Assembly (NCBI RefSeq): GCF_039822205.1
Contig: NZ_JBAGBW010000015.1
Span: forward strand, 1-50,623
Origin: Thermodesulfobium sp. 4217-1
GTDB lineage: Bacteria; Thermodesulfobiota; Thermodesulfobiia; Thermodesulfobiales; Thermodesulfobiaceae
Length of the DNA: 50,623 nucleotides
Reading direction: 5' to 3'
A model generated the notes under the pieces. It was not told the origin of the DNA. It ran no database searches and worked only from the letters and a program-made list of their open reading frames with translations. This document shows, in pieces, positions 3,269 to 19,189 of the stretch. Position numbers and translations under genes: made by a program. Positions within the stretch are counted from its first letter, which is position 1, and each line of letters begins with the position of its first letter.

Positions 3269-3316
3269 AAATAACCTCCTAATAAATTTTGTACCTGAAC
3301 CAATATACAGTCAAAA

Positions 3317-3355
3317 TGTTAATAAGATGTTAATTTTTAGTTAAATTATAGTTAA
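3317..3355 (-). promoter_or_regulatory. Four PhoP-box-like direct repeats upstream of pstS
   Basis: On the minus strand the hexamers TTAACT, TTAACT, TTAACA and TTAACA follow one another with exactly five bases between them (plus-strand positions 3350-3355, 3339-3344, 3328-3333, 3317-3322). The 11-bp period and hexamer match the direct-repeat PhoP box described for Bacillus phosphate genes. A TATATT that could be the -10 follows nine bases after the last repeat, and the pstS ATG is about 49 bases downstream. Confidence 0.65.
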
Positions 3356-3473
3356 TTGTCTGATAGTTTGCTTGGTAATGAAAGTCCCATTTTCTTTGTA
3401 AATTCATCCTCTGACAGAATCAATGATGGTTGACTCATATAAATTGGGGTAAAATAATTACCCTAAAAAGATC

Positions 3474-3912
3474 TTAACAACCACACTCTTCAATTTTAGG
3501 TAAAAGCCTATCATTAAGTTTAGAAATAAGAGAAGGGCTAATGTCCAAATACCATACATGTTAGTCAATACTTCCTGAATGTCTCTTAAGGCCATACCCT
3601 TAGAATACATAGCTATAATCTTACTTTATAAATCATCAATCACAGTTTGGCGCTTAAGAAAAATTCTAGTTTCAAATTCACTATTTCTATCTCTTGGAGT
3701 TTTTAACTTTAATTTCACTCATATCAGTTGTAATGGTTTTAGGAAAATAACTATTTCTGTATTTTTCTTTAGAAGACCTGTCAAACTTTTTATATCCGAG
3801 AAATTCATCAAATTCAGCTTCTAATGCTTTTTATAAAATTTGTTGAATAAGACTTTTTGATTTTTTCTCTAATTTGCTTAGGTTCCAGTACTCTTTTTTT
3901 TGTTTTAAACAT
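3474..3912 (-). pseudogene. Decayed IS256 (Mutator-type) transposase fragment
   Basis: Reading leftward from ATG 3912 (AAGGAGG just upstream), the pieces FDEFLGYKKFDRSS, YRNSYFPKTITTDMSEIKVK, TPRDRNSEFETRIFLKRQ, SKIIAMYSKGMALRDIQEVL and DISPSLISKLNDRLLPKIEE appear in the order found in IS256-family transposases. They are spread over at least three reading frames, with a stop after DDL and an internal deletion near the N-terminus. Homology stops just before the expected Trp after KIEE, so the DDE catalytic domain is gone. The element is dead. It abuts the truncated methyltransferase copy at 3963-4106. Confidence 0.8.
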
Positions 3913-3962
3913 TGGAAATTTTTACCTCCTTATATATGATAGTTTAAATACTCCTACACAGT

Positions 3963-4106
3963 TTAGTAAACAATCCAATGTCCTATCTGATCGAGCAACA
4001 ACCTATGAAACAGCCCATTTTCAATAATTTGGTAGCTAACATAGTATTCTTTTTTCTTATCGCTTTCACAAAACAAAAGATTTGTATTAGCATTGCCTAA
4101 ATTCAT
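3963..4106 (-). pseudogene. Truncated copy of the methyltransferase gene at 27511-28488
   Basis: The frame opens with MNLGNANTNLLFCESDKKK and continues to LLLDQIG, nearly the same as the first ~41 residues of the intact methyltransferase starting at 28488. After that it runs into unrelated sequence and stops at 3963-3965, close to the IS256 remnant. It is the 5-prime end of a second gene carried along in the duplication that also contains the glycosyltransferase at 4115-5026. Confidence 0.85.
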
Positions 4107-5060
4107 ATTTTCCCCTATGTTTTAATTTTAATTTTTCTTACAACATCAATTACATATTTTTTCTGTTCAAGAGATATGCTTTCTTTTTGCAAGATCTCTT
4201 TTAACCAAAGAAGCATCATCTTTTTCCAAAAATCATATAAATTGTTTTGAATACAATAATCTCTCTCGCTTTCCAATAGTTTAATCAAATCTATAAGCAT
4301 CTTATTATGAAAAGAGGTAGAAGTACTTTGAGAATGAATTCTATATCCTGCAACCGATTGATTGAAAAACTTAAACCTATACTTTTTTGAAAGGGCTATC
4401 CAGAGAGGCATATCTTCTACAAAAAAGTCTTCATTAAACCCTCCAACGTCCAAAATGCATTCGGTCTTAGCAAGCCAAGATACAGCAGGCAAATACCCCC
4501 TAAAAAGAGTCTTATATGTCCCGAACTCGTCTTCATTTAGATAGTTAAAGTCGTCTCTATCGGAAGCAAGAATGATCATCACGCTCTCCGACTCAATAGA
4601 ACCCTTTTGCACTCTAACAACTTCTCCATGTTCGTTTATATATGTCGCATCCCCAAAAACAATCACATAGTTATCTGGCAATCTTTCAAGCTCCTTAACA
4701 AGCAAGCTTATCTTATCTCGATAAATGACGTCATCTGATGCGCTAAAAGAACAGTATCTGCCTTGCGCCCATTTTAAGCACTTATTTAATGTCTTTGCTA
4801 TACCGTTATTTTTATCCGAGTTTATGTACTCAAATCTAACGAATCTATTCTTACAGATATCTATCATTTCGCATATCTTGCTGTGTGTATTATCTGTCGA
4901 ACAGTCATTTATAATAATAAATTCAATATTTTCGTAATTTTGATCTATAACGCTTTTTATGGCTTCCTGTACAAATTTTTCGTGATTGTAAGCAGGCATT
5001 GCAATCGTTACAAGAGATTTTTCCATTAATTTCTCCTTAAGGCTATTCTGTAAGATATTA
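3981..5060. repeat. Duplicated segment, copy A (partner at about 28366-29446)
   Basis: About 1.08 kb shared with the flagellin glycosylation locus, in the same orientation. It covers the upstream ribosome-binding site, the entire GT2 gene and the first ~41 codons of the next gene. Copy 4197-4304 is identical base for base to 28579-28686, while the middle of the gene (about 4500-4770) is clearly diverged. The left end is next to an IS256-type remnant. Confidence 0.85.
4115..5026 (-). CDS. GT2-family glycosyltransferase (duplicate copy A)
   Basis: A 303-residue soluble GT-A fold transferase. The nucleotide-sugar half opens with TIAMPAYNHEKFV and IIINDCSTDNT (about residues 7-47), and the metal-binding SDD is at 97-99 in the SASDDV context. 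The ED of VEDMPLW is a candidate catalytic-base region. It probably adds a sugar to a surface glycan. The sister gene at 28497-29408 differs at about 46 of 303 positions by my count, with changes concentrated between residues 92 and 240 and almost none in 1-59 or about 241-286. It lies downstream of the dTDP-sugar genes on the same strand. AAGGAG precedes the ATG. Confidence 0.9.
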   Translation of the reverse strand: MEKSLVTIAMPAYNHEKFVQEAIKSVIDQNYENIEFIIINDCSTDNTHSKICEMIDICKNRFVRFEYINSDKNNGIAKTLNKCLKWAQGRYCSFSASDDVIYRDKISLLVKELERLPDNYVIVFGDATYINEHGEVVRVQKGSIESESVMIILASDRDDFNYLNEDEFGTYKTLFRGYLPAVSWLAKTECILDVGGFNEDFFVEDMPLWIALSKKYRFKFFNQSVAGYRIHSQSTSTSFHNKMLIDLIKLLESERDYCIQNNLYDFWKKMMLLWLKEILQKESISLEQKKYVIDVVRKIKIKT

Positions 5061-5140
5061 TAACTAACTAAAACCTCTCACTTATTTATTTCGATAAAGC
5101 CTTGAAATCTCAACAAATGTTGTAATTATAATAGCAACTT

Positions 5141-5254
5141 TTATGAAGCTTGTAACAATTTTGTAACAAATGCTTTTGGCAGTCTCGATAGAAATAGTTC
5201 AATGAATTTTTTCAGGTTGTTTTCAGTCAATGCAAAGTTTTCAGATATACTCAT
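5141..5254 (-). CDS. Possible small protein or gene remnant, 37 residues
   Basis: A short frame from ATG 5254 with AAAAGGGA directly upstream. It encodes a hydrophilic, helix-prone peptide (MSISENFALTENNL, then FIELFLSRLPKAF). It lies in the 460-base gap between the duplicated glycosyltransferase and the aminotransferase gene. It may be the surviving end of a gene lost when the duplication arrived. I do not recognise the family. Confidence 0.25.
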   Translation of the reverse strand: MSISENFALTENNLKKFIELFLSRLPKAFVTKLLQAS

Positions 5255-5319
5255 TCCCTTTTAAATTTTTACTAAATAATCCCATTAGATTTTCTGAAAA
5301 TTTATACCTATAAAACTCA

Positions 5320-5486
5320 CTAAATTGGATTTATAACATTCACCATTAATTTGTCGTTCAACAAAAAATCTATATCTCCATCTTTATTCTTTCTTACGCT
5401 TTCGCTTATGAAGTCATTGATACCATAAAGCATATTTTCAATAGTGGCCCAATTCCATCCTTAAAGGCTACCACTCTTAATTTCAT
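5320..5486 (-). pseudogene. Small frameshifted gene after the PIN-aminotransferase fusion
   Basis: An ATG at 5484-5486 overlaps the region of the upstream stop (ATGATG, coupled start). The frame reads [11 protein letters not shown] and then breaks; one frame over, it continues WNWATIENMLYGINDFISES through KDGDIDFLLNDKL to a stop at 5320-5322. Joined, these would give a protein of about 55 residues with good coding composition. One indel therefore seems to have broken a short gene or the start of a longer one. I do not recognise the product. Confidence 0.45.
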
Positions 5487-7030
5487 CATTTAAACTTATT
5501 AATTATTTCTACAATTTTCCTTGTGTCATCCAGATTCTGTACCCCACTTATAGGCAAGCTTAAAACTTCTCGATGTATCTTCTCAGTAATTGGCAGAGAA
5601 AGAAGTCCCCATTCTTTGTGTGAACTTTGCTTGTGCGGTGGAATTGGATAATGTATCATGGTTTGAATGCCATTTTCACTCAAATATTTTTGAAAAGTTT
5701 CCCTTTCTTCTGTTCTAACTACAAATAAGTGCCAAACGTGGCCTTTTTCATCTCTTACTTGAGGCAGGATAATTTTATCGTTTTCAATGTTTTCAAGATA
5801 GAACTTTGCAATTTTCCTCCGTTTTTCTATTTCATCGTCTAAATATTTTAACTTAACCCTCAAGAAAGCAGATTGCATCTCATCAAGCCTACTATTAATT
5901 CCTTTATAGATATTTTCATATTTCTTATGACTCCCATAGTTACCAAGTGCTCTTATGCATTCTGATAAATCATAGTCATTTGTAGTAATTGCCCCAGCAT
6001 CCCCTAAAGCGCCAAGATTTTTCCCAGGGTAGAAGCTAAATCCGCTTGCATCTCCAAGATTCCCGCTTCTTTTTTCTTTATAATATGCCCCGTGAGATTG
6101 AGCAGAATCTTCAATTAACTTTAAATCATATTTTTTAACTATTTTATCTATCTTTTCCATTTCACAGGTCTGCCCATAAAGGTGAACTGCTAATATGGCT
6201 TTCGTTTTAGGAGTAATCTTTTCTTTTATTTTAGATGGATCAATTAGATATGTGTTAATGTCTGGTTCTACCAAAATCGGTTTTAAGTTGTTGTGAGAAA
6301 TAGCAAGAATCGAAGCGATATATGTATTTGCTGGAACTATCACCTCATCGCCATCGCTCATAATACCAAGCTCTTTGTACGATCTAAGTATTAAAATAAG
6401 AGCATCAAGACCACTCGCCACTCCTACGCAATATTTTGTCCCACAATATTCGGCAAACTCTTTTTCAAATGCACTGCACTCATTGCCTTGAATATACCAA
6501 CCGCTATTTATCAAATTATCAAAAGCTTTCTCATATTCATTAAAGTATTGAGCGTTAATATTTTTTAGGTCTAAAAATGGTATTTTTGTCTTTCTACTTT
6601 TTAAAAATTCAAAAAAGTTATCAGTATGTACTACAATATCAGGATATTTATTTGACATATCCTTATCTCTAGTAACTACAAATCCACCTATTGCTCTTGT
6701 AGAGGCTATAATCAGGGCATCTTCTAAATCTTGTGTGTTTGTATCTATATAAGAAGGTGTTTTTGCAATTTTAAAGTCTTTTAGTATCTCTGATATAAAA
6801 TTTTGGCTAATTTTCAAGCATTGCTTTTTTGTAATCTGTGGGAAGTCCTGCTTTATTTGAGCATATTTCAAAAAGAGTATGTTGTCCAAAGATGAAGAGG
6901 AAAGATATAATTCTATATTTTTATTATTTTTACAATACTCATAGATCTTTCTTGAGATTTTAAAGAGAATATCCCTTTTTTCACTGCTAAAATCTAAAAC
7001 TACATTTATATCAAAAACTACTTTTAGCAT
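5486..7030 (-). CDS. PIN nuclease domain fused to a DegT/DnrJ/EryC1-type sugar aminotransferase
   Basis: A 514-residue two-domain protein. Residues 1-148 form a complete PIN_3-like toxin domain: VVFDIN with Asp7, Asp13, the DLEDAL block with Glu103/Asp104, and TRDKDM with Asp122. From about residue 150 ([13 protein letters not shown], the usual N-terminus of the aminotransferase family) to the end lies a complete PLP enzyme, with EDSAQSHGA and the PLP lysine at about 337 in [14 protein letters not shown]. The second part resembles FdtB/QdtB, which transaminates dTDP-3-keto-6-deoxyhexose. No separate start codon or ribosome site is visible at the junction. ATG 7030 follows a TTG at 7033. The start overlaps the antitoxin-like gene by 20 bases. 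Confidence 0.85.
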
Positions 7031-7259
7031 CAAGGTATTCTAAGTACGCATCGGGCAAAAAATCATCATCTAAAAAAATATTTCCGCTCGCTTTGTAGGA
7101 TATCTCTTTCCAATGCATCTCTATATATTCATCAGAATAAGTCTTTTTCTCTGGTTCAGATTCTTTAATTATCTCTAAATCATCATTTCCAAAGCTTTTC
7201 AAAATCCCTAATATCTTATTTAATAATTTTTCATTTTTAATATCTAATAACAATTTCAT
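7011..7259 (-). CDS. Small acidic protein, probable antitoxin partner of the PIN domain
   Basis: An 82-residue protein starting [20 protein letters not shown], then NDDLEII and an acidic tail. The pattern of a short beta/helix opening followed by a charged, likely flexible end is that of antitoxins encoded just before PIN toxins. AAAGGAG lies at a good distance before the ATG, and its last codons overlap the start of the PIN-aminotransferase gene, the usual antitoxin-toxin arrangement. I infer the role from position and shape; the sequence does not match a named family I can recall exactly. Confidence 0.55.
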
Positions 7260-7332
7260 TTCTAACTCCTTTAATACATACTTGATATAAATATAAATAT
7301 AAAATTTTATAACTTATAATTATTTAATTAAA

Positions 7333-7854
7333 TCATAGCAAGTATCTCTTATACTTTAACTTTATATTTTCATAATCTTTTTTATCTAAACAAAAATAAT
7401 AATTTAACTCATCTTCACTAACAATCTCAGCCCCAAATCTCTTATGAAAAGCAATAACTTTATCATTATCTTTCCTAACATCGAAGTGCGACTTATCAAA
7501 ACCTAAAGTTTTAAAACCAAATTCATATATTTGAATAACTGATTCGATAGCAGTTGATTTTGGAGCATCATCTTTTATAATCCAACTGCCCCAACAAAAA
7601 GAATTTTGCTTAAAATCATACATCCTTACAAGACCATAACTATCTCCCTCTTTAGACTCAATGACAAAATAAAACTCTTTTCTTTCTTCTTCTCTTTTTT
7701 TATACTCTTTTATCCAGTCTATTTGATTTTTTACAGTACCATTAATTTTTGAAAGATATTTCGCTTTCTTATCTTGCCTCATAAGATAAATAAAATCAGC
7801 ATCTTTAAACTCTACTGTGCGCAAATTAATACTTTTACCAAATAATATCATCAA
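7333..7854 (-). CDS. GNAT-family N-acetyltransferase, likely acting on an amino sugar
   Basis: A 173-residue RimJ/RimL-like GNAT protein. INLRTVEFKDADFIYLMR opens the fold, FYFVIES and YGLVRMYDF form the central strands, and FGFKTLGFDKSHFDVRKDNDKV with FHKRFGAEIV make the C-terminal acetyl-CoA fold. Two ATG codons stand in tandem at 7854 and 7851. Its place between the ketoisomerase and the aminotransferase suggests that it acetylates the new amine, in the role a hexapeptide-repeat FdtC or QdtC usually has. That assignment is an inference. Confidence 0.75.
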   Translation of the reverse strand: MMILFGKSINLRTVEFKDADFIYLMRQDKKAKYLSKINGTVKNQIDWIKEYKKREEERKEFYFVIESKEGDSYGLVRMYDFKQNSFCWGSWIIKDDAPKSTAIESVIQIYEFGFKTLGFDKSHFDVRKDNDKVIAFHKRFGAEIVSEDELNYYFCLDKKDYENIKLKYKRYLL

Positions 7855-7893
7855 AAATATCCAAAAATAATATAAATAATTTACAATATTTAT

Positions 7894-8301
7894 TCATTTA
7901 TTATCTCCTTTCACAAACTTCAAAAACTCATCATAATCTCTAAAATAGTCACTCGGGTCATAATATTTATCAGTCAATACCAATACAACACAATCTGGAG
8001 TAAAATCAAACATTTCATGCCAAACTAAATCCTCTATAAGGATCCCCAATTTTGGAGAATTTAACTCTACAACTTCTTTTTCTGATCCATTATCAAGCAA
8101 GAACTTACAACTGCCGCTTACACAGATAGCTATTTGTTTTAGACTTTTATGAGCATGAAACCCTCTCTTAACTCCATGTTTCGTATCAAATATATAATAA
8201 ACCCTTTTTATTTCAAAAGGAATATTTTTAAACGATTCAATGGCAATTAAAGAGCCTCGCTCATCTCCCTTAATATCAAAATTTATAAATTTAATATCCA
8301 A
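7894..8301 (-). CDS. fdtA: dTDP-4-keto-6-deoxyglucose 3,4-ketoisomerase (FdtA/QdtA, WxcM-like cupin)
   Basis: A 135-residue cupin of the usual size for this family. Residues DERGSLIAIE, RVYYIFDT, RGFHAHKSLKQIAIC (with His49 and His51 in the active site) and LVWHEMFDF match WxcM-like ketoisomerases. The reaction moves the keto group from C4 to C3 of the dTDP sugar, after which a DegT-type transaminase places an amine at C3. The start is TTG at 8301 with AAGGAG upstream. It leads the operon fdtA-acetyltransferase-antitoxin-PIN/aminotransferase. Whether the product is Fuc3NAc or Qui3NAc cannot be told. Confidence 0.88.
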   Translation of the reverse strand: MDIKFINFDIKGDERGSLIAIESFKNIPFEIKRVYYIFDTKHGVKRGFHAHKSLKQIAICVSGSCKFLLDNGSEKEVVELNSPKLGILIEDLVWHEMFDFTPDCVVLVLTDKYYDPSDYFRDYDEFLKFVKGDNK

Positions 8302-8369
8302 CGCCCTACTCCTTAAATATTATTGATAAATACAAATAAGTTTCTTAACTTTAAAAAATTTAGAAGCTT

Positions 8370-8399
8370 ATTATAATTGAAAAATAGAAAATATATCAA
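8370..8399 (-). promoter_or_regulatory. Sigma-70-type promoter for the fdtA operon
   Basis: On the minus strand TTGATA (8394-8399), an 18-base spacer, and a perfect TATAAT (8370-8375), about 70 bases before the TTG start of fdtA. Confidence 0.55.
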
Positions 8400-8435
8400 T
8401 TGTAAATGATAAGTTTTCTCTGCTTTCAAAGCAAT

Positions 8436-9110
8436 TTAAATCTCAAGAACGTATCCAAAACCTCTTCTTGTCTTGAGTATCTGTGGATCCGAAGGATCTG
8501 TTTCTATCTTTTCTCTTAACCTTCTAATATATACGTCTACCATCCTTGCCTCTACAAAATATTCCTCTCCCCAGACCTTATCGATAAGCTTCTCTCTTGA
8601 GTACGTCTTTCCAGAATGCTCAAACAAAAAAACCAACAGTTTATATTCAGTGGCGGTAAGGGTCATCAGATCTCCTTGAAAAAAAATCTGGCTTTTTTCC
8701 AGATCTATCTTAAATGGCCCCTTTTCTGATATTTTATTGAAACCCTCGTTTCTTCTTATAAGGCTTTTTACCCTTGCAAGGAGTTCTCTCATGCCGAAAG
8801 GCTTCGTCAGATAGTCATCAGCCCCCAGGTCCAATAAACTTACCTTATCGTGTTCCTCTGAAAGCGCTGATAGGACTAAAATAGGAGTTTTTGAGCCCCT
8901 TGCCCTTAGAACCTTAAGAACCTCAGACCCAAACATATCAGGAAGCATTAGGTCGAGTATTACAAGAGATGCTTTTGTTTCATCAAAGTTATCAAAGGCT
9001 TGGCTGGCACTAAAAGCCTGAAAGACCTCAAAACCGTTTATATTTAAAAAGGTCTTGATATTTTCAGATATATCTATTTCGTCTTCCACCAAAAGAATTG
9101 TATTATTCAT
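8436..9110 (-). CDS. OmpR/PhoB-family response regulator
   Basis: A 224-residue two-domain regulator. The receiver has the acidic pocket at Glu9-Asp10-Glu11, the phospho-acceptor Asp53 in VILDLMLPD, and the conserved Lys in DDYLTKPFG. The C-terminal winged helix includes LTATEYKLLVFLFEH, VDVYIRRLREKI and the terminal RRGFGYVLEI. It starts 24 bases from the divergently transcribed histidine kinase, its probable partner. It is a plausible reader of the phosphate-box-like repeats at pstS, since OmpR-family proteins bind 11-bp direct repeats, but nothing else ties it to phosphate. Confidence 0.92.
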   Translation of the reverse strand: MNNTILLVEDEIDISENIKTFLNINGFEVFQAFSASQAFDNFDETKASLVILDLMLPDMFGSEVLKVLRARGSKTPILVLSALSEEHDKVSLLDLGADDYLTKPFGMRELLARVKSLIRRNEGFNKISEKGPFKIDLEKSQIFFQGDLMTLTATEYKLLVFLFEHSGKTYSREKLIDKVWGEEYFVEARMVDVYIRRLREKIETDPSDPQILKTRRGFGYVLEI

Positions 9111-9124
9111 ATTTTTATTATAAT
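9098..9124 (+). promoter_or_regulatory. Promoter for the histidine kinase, giving a near-leaderless mRNA
   Basis: A perfect TATAAT at 9119-9124 lies only ten bases before the kinase ATG (9135). A TTGTAT at 9098-9103 could be the -35, with a short 15-base spacer inside the response-regulator gene. No ribosome-binding site is visible between the -10 and the ATG. Confidence 0.45.
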
Positions 9125-9134
9125 ATCAGATATT

Positions 9135-10037
9135 ATGGAAATTTTAAAAGATGTTATTGAACTAATTGAATATCCCGTTTTAATAATTGACAAAAGCGGG
9201 CAAATAGTTTGCTACAACAAAAAGTTCAAAGAATTTTCGTGGATAAAAGATTTAGACGGAAAATATTACTTTGAGGTTCTTAGATTCTCTGAGGCACATG
9301 AAATTCTTAAAGATAATAAAATTAAAGATTTTGAAAAAGAAATATTCCTTGGCATAAATGCAAATAAATATACCTTTATTTTGAAGTCATCACAGGATGT
9401 CAGAATCATAGCCTTGAAGCCAGGAGAAAATAAGGAAGAATCCGAGCTTAGAAAAAAGCTCCTTGGCCAGATCTCTCACGAACTAAAAACACCAATTGCA
9501 GTTATTAGCTCGATTGTCGAAACAGGAGAGGTCACAGGCAAGATAGATTCAATATTTTCAGAAAAGGTACTTGATAAAATAAAAAGACTCGACCTTGCGC
9601 TGAATAATGCCATAGTAATAACAAAGATTCAGTTAGGATTGATACATATTGAGAGGGTCAAGATCAATCTCTTGTCATTTTTAGAAGAGGTGTTAAGGGA
9701 CTCTCTACCAGAGCAATACTATCTAAATGCTATATTGTTTGTTGACAAGGATAGAACTATAGAAACAGATCCATATATATTTAAAACTATAACAAAAAAT
9801 ATTTTTTTAAACTCGTTAATACACGGAAAAGAGCCAATATATGTTAGTTTTGATGGAAATATACTAACAGTAAAGGATGGCGGAATGGGCTTCAAGGAGA
9901 AAGAGCTCATAGAACTAAACAAAGAAGAGGGCTCGGCAGGTCTTGGAACTGCTATAGTTAAAAGCCTTGCAAGGATTTCTGGAATTCGCACACATTTTTC
10001 AAACGAAAACGGTGCCAAAGTAGAATTGAAATTTTAA
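9135..10037 (+). CDS. Soluble sensor histidine kinase with a PAS-like sensor domain
   Basis: A 300-residue kinase without membrane segments, so it should sense a cytoplasmic signal. Residues about 8-95 look like a PAS domain (YPVLIIDKSGQIVCYNKKF). The HisKA helix has the phospho-acceptor His115 in QISHELKTPIAV. The ATPase domain is short: an N box in KNIFLNSLIHG, G1 in VKDGGMGF and G2 in GSAGLGTAIVKSLA. It is transcribed away from the response regulator with 24 bases between the two start codons; most such pairs lie in one operon. The gene ends at a bidirectional terminator. Confidence 0.9.
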   Translation: MEILKDVIELIEYPVLIIDKSGQIVCYNKKFKEFSWIKDLDGKYYFEVLRFSEAHEILKDNKIKDFEKEIFLGINANKYTFILKSSQDVRIIALKPGENKEESELRKKLLGQISHELKTPIAVISSIVETGEVTGKIDSIFSEKVLDKIKRLDLALNNAIVITKIQLGLIHIERVKINLLSFLEEVLRDSLPEQYYLNAILFVDKDRTIETDPYIFKTITKNIFLNSLIHGKEPIYVSFDGNILTVKDGGMGFKEKELIELNKEEGSAGLGTAIVKSLARISGIRTHFSNENGAKVELKF

Positions 10038-10067
10038 ATGTCCCCCAAAAAATTTTGGGGGACATTT
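10036..10067. terminator. Bidirectional terminator between the histidine kinase and the GT2 synthase
   Basis: Fifteen-base perfect arms (10036-10050 and 10053-10067) with five G-C pairs and runs of A and T at the flanks, set between convergent genes and overlapping the kinase stop codon. Confidence 0.85.
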
Positions 10068-10074
10068 ATTTTAA

Positions 10075-11421
10075 TTATTTTATAGTTTGAAAGACTGTTG
10101 AAACGCCTTTTGCAGGCTCTTCTTGCAGACCCTTGTGATGAGTTTTGTCCCAGAAAGGAACCTCATCATTTATCCAGATAAGCCACATCTTCCACATAGC
10201 CTGTACATAGGCAATTAACCAGTGCAGCGAGAAAAACCAATATCTTAGTGGAACATAAAGCAGAGACTTTCTTGGCAGACCTAAGACCCTTGCGCCTACG
10301 CTTGCATTAACTAAGAATGCAAAAGCCAAAAAGTTCAATATAAACGATGGCAATGTAGTGTAAAACATAAATATTCTTGTAATTTCAAGCAAGAGGTAAG
10401 CATAGCCGACCAAGGTCAGATATGGCAAGAAGATTGAGAATAGAGTAAGACTAAGATCGAGCTTTTTGTTAAAAGCCATTTTTGAAAGGAAGATCTTTGG
10501 AGTGTGTTCCATAAGACACTGGAGGTATCCAAGTGCCCACCTAGTACGCTGCCTCACAAGGGCGCCAAAATTTTCGACTCCCTCCTGATAGACAGATGCC
10601 TCAGGGCAAAATCTTATATTGTATCCAGCCTCATATAATCTTAAAGATAGCTCAAGATCTTCAGTAAGAGCGTGCTCGTGCCATCCGCCCACAGAAAGAA
10701 CTGCCTCTTTCTTTGTAATCTGGCCGTTACCACCCAGAGTAGGAGCTCCATCCAGAAAATCTCTGCCCTCTTGATATATTCTTGTAAATATCGCAAATTC
10801 ATCATCCTGCGCCTTTGTAAGAAAGCTCTTCTGTGCGTTGTACATTCTAACTAAGGACTGGACACCGCCAACCTTTGGATCAGATAGATATGGAACACAC
10901 GTGCTTATAAAGTCAGCAGGAATCTTCGTATCAGAGTCAAAAACAGCAATGACTTCACCGTCTGACTCTCTCAAGCCAGCCATCAAGGCAGCAGGCTTAC
11001 CCCTTTTTGCATCCTGTCCCTGGTATACGACCTTTAGATCAGAATATTCGCCCTGCATCTGTTTTAGAATGACAGGGGTATTGTCGCTCGAAACGTTATC
11101 TACGACGATTACCTCAAATAGCCTTTTGCCGCTCTCGTCTCTGTAATCCTGGTTTATAGCATCAAGGATGGTATTTCTTATAACATTCTCTTCATTGTGC
11201 GCAGGTATCAATATGCTCACAAAAGGCCTGTAGCTATCATCTATCTTTTGGACTTCAAATTGTTTTATTATGAATCCGCCCAATATAACAGAACCGTACA
11301 CAATAAAAAACATCATCAACCATTGAAGCCACTCGAAGGTATGCGTGGCAATGCCCTGCAAAAAAGCAAAAAACAGCAGTGAGGTAAAAAAAGGAAGACT
11401 GATCTTAGCAAGTTTTGACAT
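10075..11421 (-). CDS. Membrane-bound processive GT2 glycosyltransferase (polysaccharide synthase-like)
   Basis: A 448-residue protein with two N-terminal membrane segments (about 8-52), a cytoplasmic GT-A domain and three or more C-terminal membrane segments (about 325-420). All the marks of processive beta-glycan synthases are visible: VVDNVSSDNT, DSD at 162-164, the acceptor-site GGNGQI, the catalytic TED at 253-255 and QRTRW at 291-295. This fits chitin/hyaluronan/PNAG-synthase-like enzymes. No accessory export genes lie next to it; secG starts on the same strand nine bases before its start codon, so the two are probably one unit. Confidence 0.88.
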   Translation of the reverse strand: MSKLAKISLPFFTSLLFFAFLQGIATHTFEWLQWLMMFFIVYGSVILGGFIIKQFEVQKIDDSYRPFVSILIPAHNEENVIRNTILDAINQDYRDESGKRLFEVIVVDNVSSDNTPVILKQMQGEYSDLKVVYQGQDAKRGKPAALMAGLRESDGEVIAVFDSDTKIPADFISTCVPYLSDPKVGGVQSLVRMYNAQKSFLTKAQDDEFAIFTRIYQEGRDFLDGAPTLGGNGQITKKEAVLSVGGWHEHALTEDLELSLRLYEAGYNIRFCPEASVYQEGVENFGALVRQRTRWALGYLQCLMEHTPKIFLSKMAFNKKLDLSLTLFSIFLPYLTLVGYAYLLLEITRIFMFYTTLPSFILNFLAFAFLVNASVGARVLGLPRKSLLYVPLRYWFFSLHWLIAYVQAMWKMWLIWINDEVPFWDKTHHKGLQEEPAKGVSTVFQTIK

Positions 11422-11429
11422 AATTTAGC

Positions 11430-11660
11430 CTACCAAAATATTCCCATTAGCAATGCAAGCACTATAAAAACCCCTGCCACATAAGCAGTAATCTTTGTCA
11501 AGCCTGACGCAGAACCTTGAGGAGACGTAAATAGCCTTGCCTCTCCGCCAATGGATCCAAGACCTTCTCCTTTTGGTCCGTGTAAAAGCACTAAAACGAT
11601 CAACAGTATAGCCACTCCTACTTCAAAAAGCAGTATGGCTCCTTTAAAAAATTCAGTCAT
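11430..11660 (-). CDS. secG: Preprotein translocase subunit SecG
   Basis: A 76-residue membrane protein with two hydrophobic helices (about 5-25 and 53-73) linked by a Gly-rich cytoplasmic loop, as in SecG. The loop keeps the family motif LLHGPKGEGLG and the stretch SASGLTKITAYVAG. A longer frame begins at 11699, but AGGAGG lies before the ATG at 11660 and the protein then starts MTEFFK, so I chose 11660. It assists SecYE during preprotein export. Confidence 0.92.
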   Translation of the reverse strand: MTEFFKGAILLFEVGVAILLIVLVLLHGPKGEGLGSIGGEARLFTSPQGSASGLTKITAYVAGVFIVLALLMGIFW

Positions 11661-11754
11661 TTGATAAGCACTTCCTCCTAAAAAAATAAAATTATGCAAA
11701 CTGAGCTAATTTATATATAATATCACATATAAATAAATTCAAGAAGGTGAAATC

Positions 11755-12444
11755 TTGTTCGACAAAAGTAAATTCTTTCAAACGGACCTTGTCTGCCCAA
11801 TATGTAAAATAAAGTTTAAGCAATTGAAGCTAAAGGGTGGCGCCTTCAGAACAAAAACCAGGGACATAGACCTGTGTAATACCTACGAAGGCATAAACCC
11901 AAACCTTTATAGCGCTATTGTATGTCCAGAGTGCGGCTACGCAAATCTTGATCACAGCTTCCAAAATAAGCTTTCAGACGTGGTCATAAGCGTAATGCAA
12001 AAAGAGCTTCCAAAGTCAAAGATCTACAAGAAAGACCTTACAGGAGAAAGAGACTATGAAAGCGCTATAGAGGCCTACGAACAAGCTATTTTCTGTGCTA
12101 ATGCGGCAGGTCATAGCGCAAGCCTTCTTGCAGGGATATATTTCAGAATGACCTGCCTTGCCAAGAGCTTTGGCTCATCAAATGAGGATGAATATAGATT
12201 GAAGGCTGCAGAGTTTTATGAGAAGGCATACGACCACGAAGAATTTCCTTTGGGAGGGAAAATGAGTCAAACCCTTGTAGAATACATGATCTCATCAATG
12301 TATTTCAAGTTAAATAAGCTTGAACAATCGATCTATTGGCTAAACTTCTCTATATCAAGGGATCCAAAAGGACTAACTGACCCCAAGGCTTACGCAATGA
12401 TAAAAGAGCTATGGATGACCGTAAAGAGCATAATAAAAAAATAA
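11755..12444 (+). CDS. DUF2225 zinc-ribbon/TPR protein
   Basis: A 229-residue member of the DUF2225 family, widespread in Firmicutes-like bacteria and of unknown function. The N-terminus has two CxxC pairs (Cys14/Cys17 and Cys57/Cys60) in the contexts VCPICKIKFK and VCPECGYANLDHSF. The rest is a run of TPR-like helices (AIEAYEQAIFCANAAGHSAS and similar). The start is TTG with GAAGGTG upstream. It faces secG and is transcribed alone to an AT-rich hairpin. Confidence 0.85.
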   Translation: MFDKSKFFQTDLVCPICKIKFKQLKLKGGAFRTKTRDIDLCNTYEGINPNLYSAIVCPECGYANLDHSFQNKLSDVVISVMQKELPKSKIYKKDLTGERDYESAIEAYEQAIFCANAAGHSASLLAGIYFRMTCLAKSFGSSNEDEYRLKAAEFYEKAYDHEEFPLGGKMSQTLVEYMISSMYFKLNKLEQSIYWLNFSISRDPKGLTDPKAYAMIKELWMTVKSIIKK

Positions 12445-12456
12445 TTTTATTATGCT
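12427..12456. terminator. AT-rich hairpin between convergent genes
   Basis: Perfect 12-bp arms (12427-12438 and 12445-12456), loop of six, overlapping the DUF2225 stop codon. It has only four G-C pairs, so it is a weak candidate. Confidence 0.4.
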
Positions 12457-12473
12457 AACTTTGTACATTATAT

Positions 12474-12884
12474 TTAAAGATCAAAGTCCTCACTTTTTGC
12501 AGGCTTATTCTGCATTACATCCTTTACAGCCTCAAAAATGCTTTCGGCAGTTGTATCAGGCTCTATCTCTTCCCAATGCAAATCATTTTCATCGCTTTTC
12601 ATATTAAGAAGAAGCCTTCCCTCAGAATCAAAGTAGCCAATAGTAAGTATGGTATATGTCATGTTCTTTGGGTTAAATCTCCACTTCCACAGAGAGTGAT
12701 CAAGATTGATTTCTTCATTTATCTTGGATTTTATAAAATCATTTTCCCGCTTTTTTGCCGATTCGCTTTTTAAAGTCTCTTTTATTATCACCTCTAAAAA
12801 GTTATTTTCTTCCTGGATCGAGTGCATGTCTATAAAATAGTCTTCATCTTCTGTTACCACTGCCAAAAACCATCTATCTTCCAT
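12474..12884 (-). CDS. Conserved-looking hypothetical protein, 136 residues
   Basis: No recognised domain by eye. There is no signal peptide or membrane segment. The middle has an all-beta look (WKWRFNPKNMTYTILTIGYFDSEGRLL), which resembles small proteins described as surface-adhesin-E-like, but the usual signal peptide is absent. It follows flhG by 41 bases and is probably the last gene of the flagellar operon; a flagellar role is guesswork. Confidence 0.6.
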   Translation of the reverse strand: MEDRWFLAVVTEDEDYFIDMHSIQEENNFLEVIIKETLKSESAKKRENDFIKSKINEEINLDHSLWKWRFNPKNMTYTILTIGYFDSEGRLLLNMKSDENDLHWEEIEPDTTAESIFEAVKDVMQNKPAKSEDFDL

Positions 12885-12925
12885 TATTCCTCCAAAAAAG
12901 TTATTTTTTTATTATACGACATAAT

Positions 12926-13912
12926 CTACTTTTTTATCCCAAAAAATTTACAAAATCTTGATACGAAAGAGCCATTTTTGCTACCGTTTGATTCTTCTTG
13001 CTCGTATTCTTTTGATATTTTTGAATCGTCACTTAATTTCTTGTTATAAAAAGTGGGTGTGTTGATAGGAGCCTGGTTTTGATTATAAAGGTTATCCAGG
13101 AGCTTATTCGTAATAATTTCTATCTGCCTTGCAGCATCCGACCTTGGATAGTTTACTATTAGAGGTCTGCTCTGCTTTACCGACAAGACCATTTCTTCAG
13201 AATATGAAATGCTGCCAAGAACTTCAAGGTTTACGTCTAATCTTGATTTTACCATAGGCACGAATACCTCATATATTCTCTTTACCTCTTCAAACGTTCG
13301 AGCCATATTTATAATCAAGTACACCCTTTGATTGTATAGTTTGTTTGATATAACCTTTATAAAACTATATGCGTCAGTAAGAGCAGTTGGATCTGGATTG
13401 GTGACTATTATTATATTGTTTGAAGCTATAGAAAAATTTATGATATTTTCCTGAATGCCTGCGCCCACATCGATTATCAGGGCATCTGTCTGAGACTCAA
13501 GGGTAGCAAGAGACATGAAGAGCTCCTCTTGCTTATATGATGGAAGATTGGCAGCATCTGATATGCCTGATGCCCCCGATATCAATATTGGTCCCTTGTC
13601 GACAAAGTACAATATCTCTTCAAATGGGGTATCGTTATATAAAAAATCTGCCCAGTTTTTTGGGGGTTTCACTCCTAATATAATGTTTGTATTAGCCAGG
13701 CCCACATCAGCGTCAAGAAGGACAGTCTTTATGCCTCTTCTTGACAGAGAAAGAGCCATATTAGCGCTCAATGCCGTCTTGCCAGTACCGCCCTTACCCC
13801 CTGCGAAGGAAATTGACAATTTGTTCTTAAAGGGCTGACGATTTGATTGAGAATATAGAGCATTATTTAGCTTTTCCCTTAACCTCCTTAACTCCTGTGC
13901 CTGATCGCTCAT
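12926..13912 (-). CDS. flhG: Flagellar number regulator FlhG (MinD-like ATPase)
   Basis: A 328-residue ParA/MinD-family ATPase. It begins with the DQAQELRRL motif that in FlhG stimulates the FlhF GTPase, followed by the deviant Walker A GGKGGTGKT at 38-46 and LLDADVGLANTNIIL. The C-terminus (FVSRFCKFFGIKK) is a basic amphipathic helix of the membrane-targeting type. It limits and positions flagella together with FlhF. Its ATG overlaps the flhF stop (ATGA), a tight coupling seen in many flagellar operons. Confidence 0.93.
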   Translation of the reverse strand: MSDQAQELRRLREKLNNALYSQSNRQPFKNKLSISFAGGKGGTGKTALSANMALSLSRRGIKTVLLDADVGLANTNIILGVKPPKNWADFLYNDTPFEEILYFVDKGPILISGASGISDAANLPSYKQEELFMSLATLESQTDALIIDVGAGIQENIINFSIASNNIIIVTNPDPTALTDAYSFIKVISNKLYNQRVYLIINMARTFEEVKRIYEVFVPMVKSRLDVNLEVLGSISYSEEMVLSVKQSRPLIVNYPRSDAARQIEIITNKLLDNLYNQNQAPINTPTFYNKKLSDDSKISKEYEQEESNGSKNGSFVSRFCKFFGIKK

Positions 13913-14967
13913 ACTTTAGACTCTTCAGCGTAGAAATCTCTAAATTTAATATTTAGTTGGTTTGAAAGTGAATCATCTGATGCGACCTCCAGATTTTCTG
14001 GGACGTTTTGACCAGTGCCAAATAGTGATATCGGCAAATTATTTTTTATTGACAGATCTACAATATGTCCGAGCGATATTACTTCGTCAAGCTTGGTCCA
14101 GATAATACTTGCAGGATTTAATGCCTTAAATTTATTTATATACAGGTCTAATTCTTTTGCCTTATAGTTTGCGCAAAGAACCAGATGATGCTCTGTCTTT
14201 ACCCCAGTTGACAAAAAGGCTGAAATTTCCTTAATCTTGTTGTCCAAAAGAGGGGAAAATCCCATTGTGTCTATTAAAAATATATCAATTGAATTCTTCT
14301 CTTTTTTTATAACTTCCTTTAATTCCTTAGGCGAATGTACCACAAAAAATGGTAAGTCCATGATGTCTGCGTATGCTTTTAGCTGATCCAGAGCTGCTAT
14401 CCTGAAAGTATCAAGGGTTATAAGGCAAACCCTTTTTTTCATCAAAAGTGACATCTGTGCTGCAATCTTTGCAATTGTAGTAGTCTTGCCTGCACCAGTA
14501 GGGCCTATAAGGGCTATTGCGCTGGCAGAATCCCTCTCGGTAAAAAATGAATAAAACTTGAGCCCTTTGAAAAAGTATTTCGATTTTCCGTCAATTTCTC
14601 CAGAAGTGCTAACTAATATAGATGATTTTCCCCTTTTTTCCTGAAAGTTATGAAATCTAAGAAAGCTCACTTCATTTTCATCTGTTTTTTCATCTCTTCT
14701 GAGCACTGACAGTTCTTCCTGACTTTTTTTTAGCTCTTGTAATTCTTTTTTAAATTCTTCAACGTCTCTTGCCAATTCATCAAGCTTTTTGCCCTCTTGA
14801 TTAACAGTGGCCATCACCTCAACGGCATCCTGTTTTTTCCAGATCATCCATCGGGGGGCGACATTGATAGATCTTGAGTAGAGTATCAGGGCGTCCTCAC
14901 CTAAGTCTTTTCTGATCATCAAGATTGCTTCGGCAATAGTTTTTGCAATATATCTTTTTGCGTTCAC
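13909..14967 (-). CDS. flhF: Flagellar placement GTPase FlhF (SRP-type)
   Basis: A 352-residue SRP-GTPase. The N-terminal B domain and a charged, coiled-coil-like stretch (about 58-100) precede the G domain, which has the P loop GPTGAGKT at 155-162, LITLDTFRIAALDQL, the DTMGFS switch and TKLDE for guanine recognition. It recruits the first flagellar parts to the membrane. The start is GTG and overlaps the fliI stop (GTGA). It lies in the usual order fliI-flhF-flhG. Confidence 0.94.
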   Translation of the reverse strand: MNAKRYIAKTIAEAILMIRKDLGEDALILYSRSINVAPRWMIWKKQDAVEVMATVNQEGKKLDELARDVEEFKKELQELKKSQEELSVLRRDEKTDENEVSFLRFHNFQEKRGKSSILVSTSGEIDGKSKYFFKGLKFYSFFTERDSASAIALIGPTGAGKTTTIAKIAAQMSLLMKKRVCLITLDTFRIAALDQLKAYADIMDLPFFVVHSPKELKEVIKKEKNSIDIFLIDTMGFSPLLDNKIKEISAFLSTGVKTEHHLVLCANYKAKELDLYINKFKALNPASIIWTKLDEVISLGHIVDLSIKNNLPISLFGTGQNVPENLEVASDDSLSNQLNIKFRDFYAEESKV

Positions 14968-16271
14968 TGAAGTATCTCGCTTAATTTTTTATAGGTGTCA
15001 TCAAAACTTGAGGTGTCATATGGACCCTGTTTTAAAAACTCTTCAATCCTTGATATCTTCTCAATACTCTCATCAATTTTAGGATTGGATCCCTTTTGGT
15101 AAGCTCCAATGTTAATAAGATCGTATGCCTCTTTATACGAGGCTATCAGCTCTTTTATACGGTAACTAAGATTTAAGTGATCTCTGTCGACAATAGAGCT
15201 CATAAGCCTGCTTATGCTCTGTGAAATATCTATAGGTGGATAGTGGCCTCTTTCAGCCAAATCTCTGGACAAAACGATGTGCCCATCCAATATGCTCCTT
15301 GCATGATCGGCTATTGGCTCTGACAGATCGTCTCCCTCGACAAGCACAGTGTATATGCCTGTTATAGATCCCTTATCAGACGTCCCAGCTCTCTCTAAGA
15401 GCCTTGCCATCATAGTAAAAACAGAGGGAGGATACCCTCTTGTAGTAGGCGGCTCGCCAATTGAGAGCCCCAGCTCTCTTTGTGCCATACAAACCCTTGT
15501 CAAAGAGTCCATCACCATAAGCACGTCCATACCCAGATCCCTAAAATATTCTGCGATAACAGTTGCAGTAAAGGCAGAGAGCACCCTTTGTGAGGGAGGA
15601 TTGTCTGAAGTGGACACTATTACCACAGACTTTGCCATACCATCTTCTCCCAAACTCTCTTCCAAAAACTCCCTTACCTCACGACCTCTTTCTCCAACCA
15701 GCGCAATAATGTTTACCTGTGCATTACAAAATCTAGATATCATCCCAAGAAGTGTGGTTTTGCCGATGCCAGAGCCTGCGAAAATTCCTATTCTTTGACC
15801 CTTGCCCAATGTCAAAAGACCGTCAATTGCCCTGATACCTGTGGAAATAGGTTCTCTTATCCTGCCCCTTGTCAGGGGATGGGGAGACTTGTTTTCTATC
15901 GATCTATATTGTGACATATCGTCTCTATCAATGTGATTTACTGACAGAGGTCTTCCCAAACCGTCAAGAATGTGACCCAAGAGCTGTTTCCCTACCCATA
16001 AGCCCAGCTGTTTACCTGTTTTTTTTACTATTGAGCCAGGCTCTATACCCTCAACCGCGTCAAAAGGGGTCAGATATACCTTATTTGACGCAAATCCAAT
16101 AACCAGGCAAGGAACCTGATTTTTCCCAGAGTCAATGTAGACAATCTCACCAATAGATACCTTTGGACCAATTGATTCGACTACGTAACCGCTAATTCTA
16201 TCAATTGTGCCATTCCAGGGAAGATAGTTATAATCGTCAATAAAATCTTTAAGCAAGGCAAGGCTCTTCAT
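14964..16271 (-). CDS. fliI: Flagellum-specific ATPase FliI
   Basis: A 435-residue F1-beta-like ATPase of the flagellar type III export apparatus. The Walker A motif GSGIGKT is at 166-172, followed by ALVGERGREVREFLEE and the Walker B region VLMVMDSLTRV. It unfolds or releases export substrates with FliH. It starts three bases after fliH, at ATG 16271. Confidence 0.95.
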   Translation of the reverse strand: MKSLALLKDFIDDYNYLPWNGTIDRISGYVVESIGPKVSIGEIVYIDSGKNQVPCLVIGFASNKVYLTPFDAVEGIEPGSIVKKTGKQLGLWVGKQLLGHILDGLGRPLSVNHIDRDDMSQYRSIENKSPHPLTRGRIREPISTGIRAIDGLLTLGKGQRIGIFAGSGIGKTTLLGMISRFCNAQVNIIALVGERGREVREFLEESLGEDGMAKSVVIVSTSDNPPSQRVLSAFTATVIAEYFRDLGMDVLMVMDSLTRVCMAQRELGLSIGEPPTTRGYPPSVFTMMARLLERAGTSDKGSITGIYTVLVEGDDLSEPIADHARSILDGHIVLSRDLAERGHYPPIDISQSISRLMSSIVDRDHLNLSYRIKELIASYKEAYDLINIGAYQKGSNPKIDESIEKISRIEEFLKQGPYDTSSFDDTYKKLSEILQ

Positions 16272-16273
16272 AT

Positions 16274-16942
16274 CTACTCGAAAATCCTTTGCAATTCTTT
16301 AATAAAATTATCTTCTATAGATTTTATTCTCCCATCCAGAAACCCAAAATCAGTCTTTATCATAAAATCTCCGCTTTTTACCATTGGATCTACTTCCACA
16401 GGTATGTCAAAATCATTAAATTTATCTGCATCGTCCTTTGAAATCCTTAGCTTTATCTCGACATTTGGCGGAATTTCTTTCAAAAAAACTCCTATGCGCT
16501 CTTTCAGAACGTCAAAGTTTTTTAAAGATTTTGAATGCAAGATCTGCTTTATTGATTTTATTACTATATTAAATGCCTCTTCCTCTAATCTTTTTTCGAC
16601 CTCCAAAAGCAGTTTTCTTTTATCTTCATTTAATTTTTCTATGTTTTCTCTTAAAATTTTTGATCTTTCCTCTTCTTTTGCCTCTGAATCTTCCCTTGCC
16701 TTTTCCAACCCCTCCTTATATCCCAACTCAAAGCCATCTTTTTTGGCCTCTTGTTTTAGCTTTTCTATCTCTGACATTGCCTGGTTTATTAACTCCTGCT
16801 TACTCACAGAATCTTCTTTTTTATCATCAACCTCTGACAAGGCATTGCAGTCAGATCCCTCTATCTGTGCTTTTACTGGAACGATGAATCCTTCATCTAC
16901 TAAACAGACGTTTTTCAAGATCTTAGAGCTTTTTATTTTCAT
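16274..16942 (-). CDS. fliH: Flagellar assembly protein FliH
   Basis: A 222-residue protein whose centre (about 45-125) is a long charged coiled coil rich in Lys and Glu, with a C-terminal FliH/V-ATPase-E-like domain (about 125-222: KDDADKFNDFDI, VDPMVKSGDFMIKTDFGFLDG). Only position and shape identify it, but it sits directly before fliI as in other flagellar operons. Its start overlaps the csrA end by 20 bases and has no strong ribosome-binding site, which suggests coupling to csrA translation. Confidence 0.85.
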   Translation of the reverse strand: MKIKSSKILKNVCLVDEGFIVPVKAQIEGSDCNALSEVDDKKEDSVSKQELINQAMSEIEKLKQEAKKDGFELGYKEGLEKAREDSEAKEEERSKILRENIEKLNEDKRKLLLEVEKRLEEEAFNIVIKSIKQILHSKSLKNFDVLKERIGVFLKEIPPNVEIKLRISKDDADKFNDFDIPVEVDPMVKSGDFMIKTDFGFLDGRIKSIEDNFIKELQRIFE

Positions 16943-17162
16943 CTTTTAACACTTTTAACAAGTTATCAATATCATTCTCTTTAAAAACAGAATCTTTCAT
17001 TGAATCCTTTATCTTATCAACCAGTTCACTTCTTAATACCTTGATGTCTTTTGCAGCATCTATGCCTATTTTTACCACATCTTTATCAATAGCTACTACT
17101 GTAACAGTAATTTTATCCCCTATAATGAAGCTCTGACCAGTCTTTCTGCTAATAACTAACAC
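16923..17162 (-). CDS. csrA: Carbon storage regulator CsrA
   Basis: An RNA-binding repressor of 79 residues from the GTG at 17162. An ATG at 17177 would add five residues, but AAAGGG is six bases before the GTG and the product then starts VLVISRKTGQSFIIGD, as CsrA does. The core strands are TVTVVAIDKDVVKIGIDAAKD. A longer than usual charged tail follows position 60. CsrA typically binds GGA motifs around the flagellin ribosome-binding site; such motifs are present in the fliC leader here. No fliW, its antagonist in many bacteria, lies in the window. Confidence 0.92.
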   Translation of the reverse strand: MLVISRKTGQSFIIGDKITVTVVAIDKDVVKIGIDAAKDIKVLRSELVDKIKDSMKDSVFKENDIDNLLKVLKDENKKL

Positions 17163-18267: not shown

Positions 18268-18323
18268 TAAAGTGAGCTCCCAGTAATAATTTAGACAAAA
18301 GTTATTTTTCGCCTATTAACGCT

Positions 18324-18332
18324 ATTATATCA
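18324..18332 (-). promoter_or_regulatory. Extended -10 promoter for the HD-GYP-csrA-fli operon
   Basis: On the minus strand TGATATAAT (TGn plus perfect TATAAT) lies about 57 bases before the HD-GYP start. No good -35 is visible 17 bases upstream, which fits an extended -10 promoter. Confidence 0.45.
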
Positions 18333-18431
18333 CAAAGAAGCTTAACTTTTAGAACAAATTATTTTATCCAAGGCCGTATAATGCGCTCAGATTTGCGGGT
18401 TAATGACCATAAAACATTCGCTGTCTTTATT

Positions 18432-18785
18432 TTAAGTATTTTGGTCCAATAGATTTTTCTTTTTTTCGGGGACTAAATTTGTTTGGAGGTATTCTCTCTT
18501 TGAGTCTTCATCGAATCTTAATTCCTTAAGATCTTGCTTTACTCTTTCAATCTCTTTGTTTAATATGTCTATGTTTTCACCCTGAATCCTTTTTAACTCG
18601 TTTAGTGCCTCGATAGACTCTGGTTTAAACTTACCAGATTTGGTCTTTATTTCATCCAGCTCTCTGATTACCAAACTTTTTTCTTTTATAAGCTCATCGA
18701 CATCGCTTATCTTTTTCTCTATCAATAGCTCTCTTTCCTGAAGAAGAAGCTTTTTAAACCTCTCAAGAAGCTTATCCTCGCTCAC
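18432..18785 (-). CDS. FliT/FlgN-like flagellar chaperone
   Basis: A 117-residue, strongly charged helical protein from the GTG at 18785, which overlaps the fliS stop (GTGA). A start at 18824 would force a 43-base overlap and lacks support. The sequence is almost wholly coiled-coil-prone (ELLIEKKISDVDELIKEKSL, DILNKEIERVKQDLKELRFD) like export chaperones for FliD or hook-associated proteins. Position after fliD and fliS favours FliT, but sequence conservation in this family is low. It is the last gene of the fliC cluster. Confidence 0.65.
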   Translation of the reverse strand: MSEDKLLERFKKLLLQERELLIEKKISDVDELIKEKSLVIRELDEIKTKSGKFKPESIEALNELKRIQGENIDILNKEIERVKQDLKELRFDEDSKREYLQTNLVPEKKKNLLDQNT

Positions 18786-19168: not shown

Positions 19169-19189
19169 CTTTTCCTCCTAAATTACCAA

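Follow-up and report, generated by a model that had tools for sequence, protein, structure and literature searches.

A PIN toxin domain fused to a nucleotide-sugar aminotransferase behind a small antitoxin gene: a candidate addiction cassette in surface-glycan loci

A gene in the 50,623-nucleotide stretch of Thermodesulfobium sp. 4217-1 analysed here (contig NZ_JBAGBW010000015.1, positions 1 to 50,623; hereafter the window) joins a PIN toxin domain to a complete nucleotide-sugar 3-aminotransferase, and a small putative antitoxin gene overlaps its start. Fourteen further fused genes were found, all in Campylobacterota genomes, giving a total of 15. The explanation that we favour, and place just on the probable side, involves a VapBC-like type II cassette: its PIN toxin has become the N-terminal part of the aminotransferase and would make a swap-prone glycan locus addictive. 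Sequence comparison shows its parts: an antitoxin family ahead of the fusion, a PIN fold with most of its acidic residues, a complete aminotransferase, joint inheritance of antitoxin and PIN with exchange as a unit on two enzyme families, and purifying selection on the PIN, weaker on the antitoxin. A toxin tethered to an enzyme, held by its antitoxin and rendering the locus addictive, is the function we consider most likely. A reading of the window from its letters alone (the sequence-only reading) had proposed a PIN toxin domain, an antitoxin ahead of it with a 20-base overlap, fusion at the natural start of the enzyme and an amino-sugar operon as the setting, and all four proposals held up.

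The fusion occupies a single open frame at 5486..7033 (-), of 515 amino acids counted from the TTG at 7033; we judge the ATG at 7030, which gives 514, to be the likelier start. From this ATG the gene shares 20 bases with an 82-residue open reading frame (ORF) at 7011..7259 (-), the putative antitoxin gene. Residues 1-148 from the ATG (6587..7030 (-), including a short linker) make up the PIN domain of VapC fold, and I150 to the stop (5486..6583 (-)) the aminotransferase domain. An AlphaFold model of the whole fusion had a mean pLDDT of 87.5 and a pTM of 0.77, and the PIN half modelled alone reached a pLDDT of 94. VapC toxins were the top structural matches of the PIN-only model, with Shigella VapC (5ed0) at Z 13.2 and a root-mean-square deviation of 2.4 over 118 residues. 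The PIN_3 family (PF13470) matched residues 4-125 at E 7e-5 and 24 bits, under the curated cut-off of 27 bits; among relatives (L-numbers denote loci, and G-numbers genomes, from the genome searches), the PIN part of L100 scored 32.1 bits, over the cut-off, and that of L073 18.6. A PIN profile run against PDB sequences gave a single match, at E 0.61. Alignment placed acids at D7, D101, E103, D104 and D122 of the window PIN (ATG numbering). The sequence-only reading had counted all expected acidic residues as present, which is right for these five and wrong for the classical second PIN acid, a Glu, whose place is taken by Asn50. A Glu at this position was also missing from all four unfused PIN_3 relatives aligned. 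The motif KTPSY or KTPTY was present in every one of the 15 fused proteins.

The aminotransferase part matched DegT_DnrJ_EryC1 (PF01041) over residues 166-511 (E 5e-105, 352 bits). Membership of the DegT/DnrJ/EryC1/StrS family was borne out by coverage of the family length and by the pyridoxal phosphate (PLP) lysine, which we take to be K338 (TTG numbering) of the PGK/PAKxLG motif, invariant in the six fused proteins aligned. None of the 25 NCBIfam matches listed for the fusion reached its cut-off, and a fold search of the whole model against viral structures returned mainly PLP enzymes. Campylobacter jejuni WlaRG structures aligned to this part at Z 52.2-52.6 with 59-60% identity; the wider set of WlaRG, Helicobacter canadensis HCAN_0200 and QdtB (5u1z, 5u20, 5u21, 5u23, 7n63, 3frk) matched over the whole enzyme at Z 51.9-52.7 with 52-60% identity. 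Identity to WlaRG and QdtB, together with an FdtA neighbour, points to a dTDP-3-keto-6-deoxyhexose 3-aminotransferase of the FdtB/QdtB/WlaRG type. Like the genes of dTDP-sugar 3-aminotransferases, the window gene adjoins an FdtA-type isomerase and an acetyltransferase; unlike it, WlaRG, HCAN_0200 and QdtB carry no toxin domain and begin where the PIN fusion ends.

A whole-protein search of genome contigs returned 54 loci, one of them fused (L015, from an epsilonproteobacterial metagenome-assembled genome). Its protein matches residues 5-514, with the PIN part 38% and the aminotransferase 75% identical to those of the window. Among the 53 unfused loci, all 51 that were parsed (L048 and L052 were left out) encode free-standing enzymes starting at, or at most 12 residues before, an 'IPFLDLK'-type sequence, and this same sequence is the changeover point in the fused proteins. 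The junction is exact, with fusion at the natural start of the enzyme. An ATG lies 21-26 codons ahead of the enzyme in 11 of the 15 fused genes. A conserved internal start yielding extra free enzyme was considered and rejected, as L075 and L103 lack any ATG, GTG or TTG in the interval that runs from 30 codons ahead of the junction to 11 codons past it; in single genomes such a start is possible.

The sequence-only reading had proposed a search for further proteins combining PIN and DegT domains behind a small gene. Of the 14 found, L015 is FdtB/WlaRG-type and 13 are WbpE-type (UDP-sugar), as assigned from relatedness and gene order. A PIN query against 397 Campylobacterota genomes matched in 11, comprising five with a fusion (L015 included), two with stand-alone PIN toxins and four with weak matches. 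Profile searches of three families (22, 22 and 175 genomes, with matches in 6, 8 and 38) added L083, L089, L090 and L098-L103. Wherever upstream DNA suffices, the WbpE-type fusions share their operons with genes for a hexapeptide acetyltransferase and a GFO/IDH/MocA dehydrogenase, as do WbpE/WlbC UDP-sugar enzymes (by Pfam for L072); L103 is the exception, with a RhuM-like gene (by eye) in place of the usual operon genes. Two of the 13 (L102 and L103) carry a second, divergent PIN subtype (PIN2), fused at the same point of the WbpE-type enzyme and preceded by another antitoxin type. Seven fusions of the first subtype (PIN1) outside the profile build scored 187-231 bits, L102 61, L103 50 and the best stand-alone PIN 47. 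Two separate genes in related genomes had been named beforehand as evidence against a true fusion; the three profile searches turned up this PIN subfamily in fused genes and in no stand-alone form. In a tree built with 14 of 18 parsed unfused PINs (35 loci tried), the 15 fused PINs formed one clade that excluded all 14 stand-alone PINs, at support 100/99 and with a long-branch warning. Recurring as it does in fifteen genomes and on two types of sugar enzyme, the fusion is a travelling module rather than an accident. The window genome probably lies outside Campylobacterota, and the module would then have crossed phyla.

Several other matches were followed and set aside. The frames of G360 (459 residues) and G088 (506 residues) proved by eye to be unfused genes open upstream by chance, and the weak PIN matches L078 and L079 were chance matches to UvrB, again by eye; L080 and L081 resemble them in frame and score. 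Across the 19 genomes of the best whole-protein loci, that of L015 apart, one weak match was obtained (E 0.006, in an 855-residue frame). The PIN was not found in any of the three other genomes of the window's genus, which gave one weak match at E 0.007 in an 804-residue frame.

A small ORF of 69-108 residues lies directly upstream at all 14 fused loci with upstream DNA, the contig of L015 starting 21 bases ahead of its gene. At 13 of them it runs 1 to 20 bases into the PIN gene, and at L102 it ends two bases short of the PIN start. None of the 27 unfused WbpE-type loci compared, the best-scoring and not all of those in 165 genomes, leaves space for such an ORF; in contrast to the fused loci, the upstream ORF there has at least 142 residues and ends at most 75 bases from the aminotransferase start. 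The window ORF shares 24-40% identity with its positional counterparts at nine other fused loci, and matched no family in Pfam, NCBIfam, PADLOC or PHROGs. Weak PHROGs matches of the L103 ORF (E 6e-4, function unknown) and the L073 ORF (E 0.006, portal protein) were not trusted. Three antitoxin types precede the fusions: type A at ten loci, the window included, type B at L074 and L099 (39% identical to each other), and type C at L102 and L103.

A profile of ten of these ORFs, run on 175 genomes of one family, matched in 41, of which three carry a fusion, and it did so mostly through the N-terminal ~40 residues. The ORF was located by script in 21 of 30 such loci: two were fused, two had no downstream ORF in range, and 17 were free-standing with one. 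Behind these 17 stood 13 PIN-like genes (one short, L182), one ParE gene and one RelE-like gene (by eye, no Pfam match); Pfam, run on nine of the 17, identified seven PIN proteins and one ParE. Antitoxins often combine a constant N-terminus with a variable C-terminus ahead of many toxins. The window ORF belongs to an antitoxin family, because its N-terminal ~40 residues recur ahead of free-standing PIN and ParE toxins. 'Antitoxin-like' had been a guess from gene order with no family match behind it, and this family now lends it substance. The loci L174-L200 outline this family, for which Pfam has no model: its N-terminus is constant, its C-terminus varies, and PIN and ParE-type toxins follow it.

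The histories of the three parts were compared. In identity matrices of nine loci, PIN and antitoxin correlated at r 0.85, and PIN and aminotransferase at r 0.54; six of the 15 were left out, namely the window, whose enzyme is of the other type, L015, which lacks upstream DNA, and L074, L099, L102 and L103, which have other antitoxin types. On an aminotransferase tree with 8 of the 46 unfused FdtB-type proteins, the fused label required five changes, four of them forced at well-supported branches. In approximately unbiased (AU) tests, enzyme data rejected pairs of the PIN tree: L074 with L099 (p 0.0006), L102 with L103 (2e-69), L072 with L089 (5e-5) and L090 with L100 (0.03). These tests omitted the first 40 enzyme residues and used 9 of 28 unfused WbpE-type rows, and several branches of the tree are weak. 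Conversely, PIN data rejected aminotransferase groupings: L072 with L090 (p 0.017), L089 with L100 and L102 (7e-5), and L074 with L098 and L101 (0.002). The plain reading of these sequence comparisons is that antitoxin and PIN have been exchanged as a unit among aminotransferase genes, because their shared history conflicts with the aminotransferase tree. The FdtB-type enzymes may have captured the PIN once or twice, the AU test giving p 0.10 and 0.21 on whether the window and L015 PINs are sisters.

We hypothesize that the antitoxin, translated first from the overlapping gene, would bind and silence the PIN part of the fusion, and that with the PIN silenced the enzyme would work normally in the glycan pathway. 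Should the locus be lost or silenced, or another glycan cluster take its place, the labile antitoxin would disappear while the long-lived enzyme-toxin would persist, and the freed PIN ribonuclease (RNase) would arrest the cell. Tethering could serve in two ways: a stop or frameshift could not remove the toxin without loss of the sugar enzyme, and the dose and lifetime of the toxin would be set by a stable metabolic enzyme. The outcome would be an addiction module for a swap-prone surface-glycan locus.

A number of observations weigh against this explanation. Addiction is its least tested step, and regulation or phage defence would give the same anatomy. The antitoxin ORFs of the fused loci have no trustworthy Pfam family, and two of the 17 genes behind the free-standing ORFs (L183 and L192) are not toxin-like. 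PIN also correlated with the upstream acetyltransferase at r 0.73 (eight loci) and antitoxin with enzyme at r 0.67; separation of cassette from enzyme by correlation is a matter of degree, as genome relatedness enters all the matrices, and the groups for the AU tests were picked after the trees had been seen. The fusion is rare. WbpE-type enzymes occur in 165 of the 397 genomes (E<=1e-110), with at least four fused among the matches listed, and FdtB-type enzymes in 70, with one fused. Asp104, which we take to be the counterpart of catalytic Asp98 of Shigella VapC, is replaced by Gly in L015 and Ser in L075 (2 of 15), and L075 has lost Asp101 besides, and some fused copies may be dead as nucleases. 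The ratio of nonsynonymous to synonymous divergence (dN/dS) of the antitoxin rises to 0.58 in one pair.

A regulatory coupling without addiction, in which the PIN RNase would tune its own glycan operon or growth by enzyme state (for example through substrate- or antitoxin-dependent release), is an unlikely alternative that draws on two further results, both of which also count for the favoured cassette. The first concerns D171 and N175 (6506..6520 (-)), which lie in the first helix of the aminotransferase. Both occur in all 15 fused proteins; among unfused enzymes D171 was found in 1 of 28 WbpE-type and 2 of 46 FdtB-type rows, and N175 in 5 of 28 and 1 of 46, the FdtB-type sample being 46 of 53 loci (7 unparsed). 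Throughout the aminotransferase these are the only two columns marking fusions of both enzyme types, a marking column being one whose residue 13 or more of the 15 fused proteins have in common, against less than a quarter of each unfused group. Fused-specific in both families and near the PIN junction in sequence, they suggest domain contact or co-adaptation. We read them as a likely co-adaptation to the attached PIN, since the residues preceding them stay FdtB-like in the FdtB fusions; the alternative is a short conversion tract. The second result is selection. For the closest pair (L073/L083, synonymous divergence ~0.4-1.3), dN/dS was 0.07-0.09 for the PIN, 0.08 for the enzyme and 0.10-0.20 for the antitoxin; four other pairs gave 0.08-0.26 for the PIN and 0.13-0.58 for the antitoxin, some being saturated and without value. 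The PIN is under purifying selection, as is the enzyme, with weaker constraint on the antitoxin. However, exchange of antitoxin and PIN between the aminotransferase genes of two sugar pathways is ill-suited to a sensor of a single pathway. Diversity on the WbpE-type enzyme, which is found with two subtypes of PIN and three types of antitoxin, likewise argues against it.

About equally improbable is a domesticated remnant, in which a dead PIN would be kept for folding, dimerisation or as a linker, with the small ORF a leftover or its chaperone. Loss of Asp104 in L015 and L075 speaks for decay in some lineages, and the long branch (1.41) and sub-threshold Pfam score of the window PIN could be explained in the same way. 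Against decay as a general account, D7, E103 and D122 are kept in all 15 fused PINs, D101 in 14 and D104 in 13; the antitoxin ORF is retained at 14 of 14 loci, its type tracks the PIN type, and PIN dN/dS in the closest pair is below 0.1. The sequence-only reading had held that missing catalytic residues would refute its proposal; in the window D7, E103, D104 and D122 are present, with Asn50 at the classical Glu position, and the concern is realised in part in L015 and L075, at Asp104.

Phage defence is a role of some toxin-antitoxin modules, and phages exert pressure on surface-glycan loci. An abortive-infection module in a phage-receptor locus, where infection or shut-off would deplete the antitoxin and free the enzyme-bound RNase, fits this background and is marginally less likely again. 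PADLOC models matched neither window protein, tblastn against 50,697 phage records and 72,556 plasmid records found no PIN relatives, and no defence genes were recognised in the flanks read by eye. A search of IMG/VR gave one locus, matching residues 139-515 only, and 44 pattern matches of the PIN profile, none of which was confirmed. A recent accidental fusion or an assembly artefact in a single genome, which the sequence-only reading had named the simplest alternative, would suit the island setting and the lack of the PIN in three genomes of the genus, but is very improbable and is contradicted by 14 further fused genes of two aminotransferase types, in other assemblies, with the same junction and, where upstream DNA exists, an ORF ahead.

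Compared with known VapBC systems (Shigella flexneri VapC, 5ed0/5ecw/5ecd), the addiction cassette proposed here shares the PIN fold and an antitoxin gene directly ahead with overlap, and the N-terminal family of the window antitoxin elsewhere precedes free-standing PIN toxins. It differs in that the toxin is the N-terminal third of a 514-residue biosynthetic enzyme rather than a small free-standing protein, in the Asn at the classical Glu position, and in that every copy found of this PIN subfamily sits on a sugar aminotransferase. Stand-alone PIN_3 toxins of Campylobacterota (L076, L077, L104 and others) have D7 and E103 in all four aligned and D122 in three, yet are separate proteins of ~135-147 residues, and L076, L077 and L104 are preceded by other-looking antitoxins. 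Among the open-access papers listed in literature searches, judged by titles and abstract openings and with subscription papers and database architectures outside the scope, none described such a fusion. One study places class I/II aminotransferases (pfam00155) among frequent PIN neighbours, within a larger conserved gene association and as neighbours, not fusions (PMC2701414). Text matches to 'DegT' in PMC10853773 and PMC5379612 were to an author's name.

The fusion is the last of four genes in the order FdtA (8301-7894), GNAT (7854-7333), 82-residue ORF (7259-7011) and fusion (7033-5486) on the minus strand. The first, at 7894..8301 (-), encodes an FdtA-type dTDP-sugar 3,4-ketoisomerase (PF05523 FdtA, E 5e-49), and the second, at 7333..7854 (-), a GNAT acetyltransferase of the amino-sugar operon (Acetyltransf_3, E 2e-14). 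A family 2 glycosyltransferase (4115..5026 (-); PF00535, E 8e-28) lies in the same glycan island, which contains all of these genes and extends approximately over 3358..8434, flanked by genes for a phosphate-binding protein and a response regulator. In two genomes of the same genus the ORFs of these flanking genes are 86 and 91 bases apart, and in alignment to L216 the two flanks are contiguous, 2 bases apart. The window has 5.2 kb with glycan genes between them, and the closest genome (regulator 96% identical) has 8.5 kb of other genes, glycosyltransferase- and aminotransferase-like among them, partly by eye. G+C was 0.26-0.34 per kilobase in the insert against 0.33-0.44 across 9001-20000, the first kilobase of the window also being at 0.29. 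The site behind the response-regulator gene (window 3358-8434; L215, L216 and L217) is probably one of glycan-set exchange, because across genomes of the genus it is empty, holds this set or holds a different one; this setting counts in favour of the proposed addiction cassette.

At the island edge, 3269-4114 (-) holds what looks by eye, in six-frame translation, like the remains of an IS256-family transposase, frameshifted and spread over several frames. Small mobile-looking genes accumulate around the fused operons: by eye, RhuM-like genes lie near two fused loci (L074 2-400 (-), L103 2222-3244 (-)), and MNT-like nucleotidyltransferase genes near two (L098 2093-2380 (+), L103 90-380 (-)). 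Small genes reading by eye like four-helix bundles occupy the interval between dehydrogenase and acetyltransferase in L100 (260-625 (+)) and L102 (368-613 (+)).

More broadly, and more tentatively than for the window locus itself, we suggest a class of enzyme-tethered toxins, in which mobile antitoxin-PIN cassettes would weld themselves to sugar aminotransferase genes and make glycan synthesis the source of a poison that only the linked gene restrains. Recurrence of the cassette on two enzyme families, together with the conflict between its trees and those of the enzymes, makes the idea testable by routine assays of expression, rescue and locus stability. A common view of chromosomal toxin-antitoxin modules is that they decay, since mutation can remove the toxin. 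Welding the toxin to a useful enzyme would be a simple escape from such decay and would let a surface-sugar locus resist replacement. If true, hypervariable glycan clusters would become addictive loci, and the toxin gene would be protected from loss.

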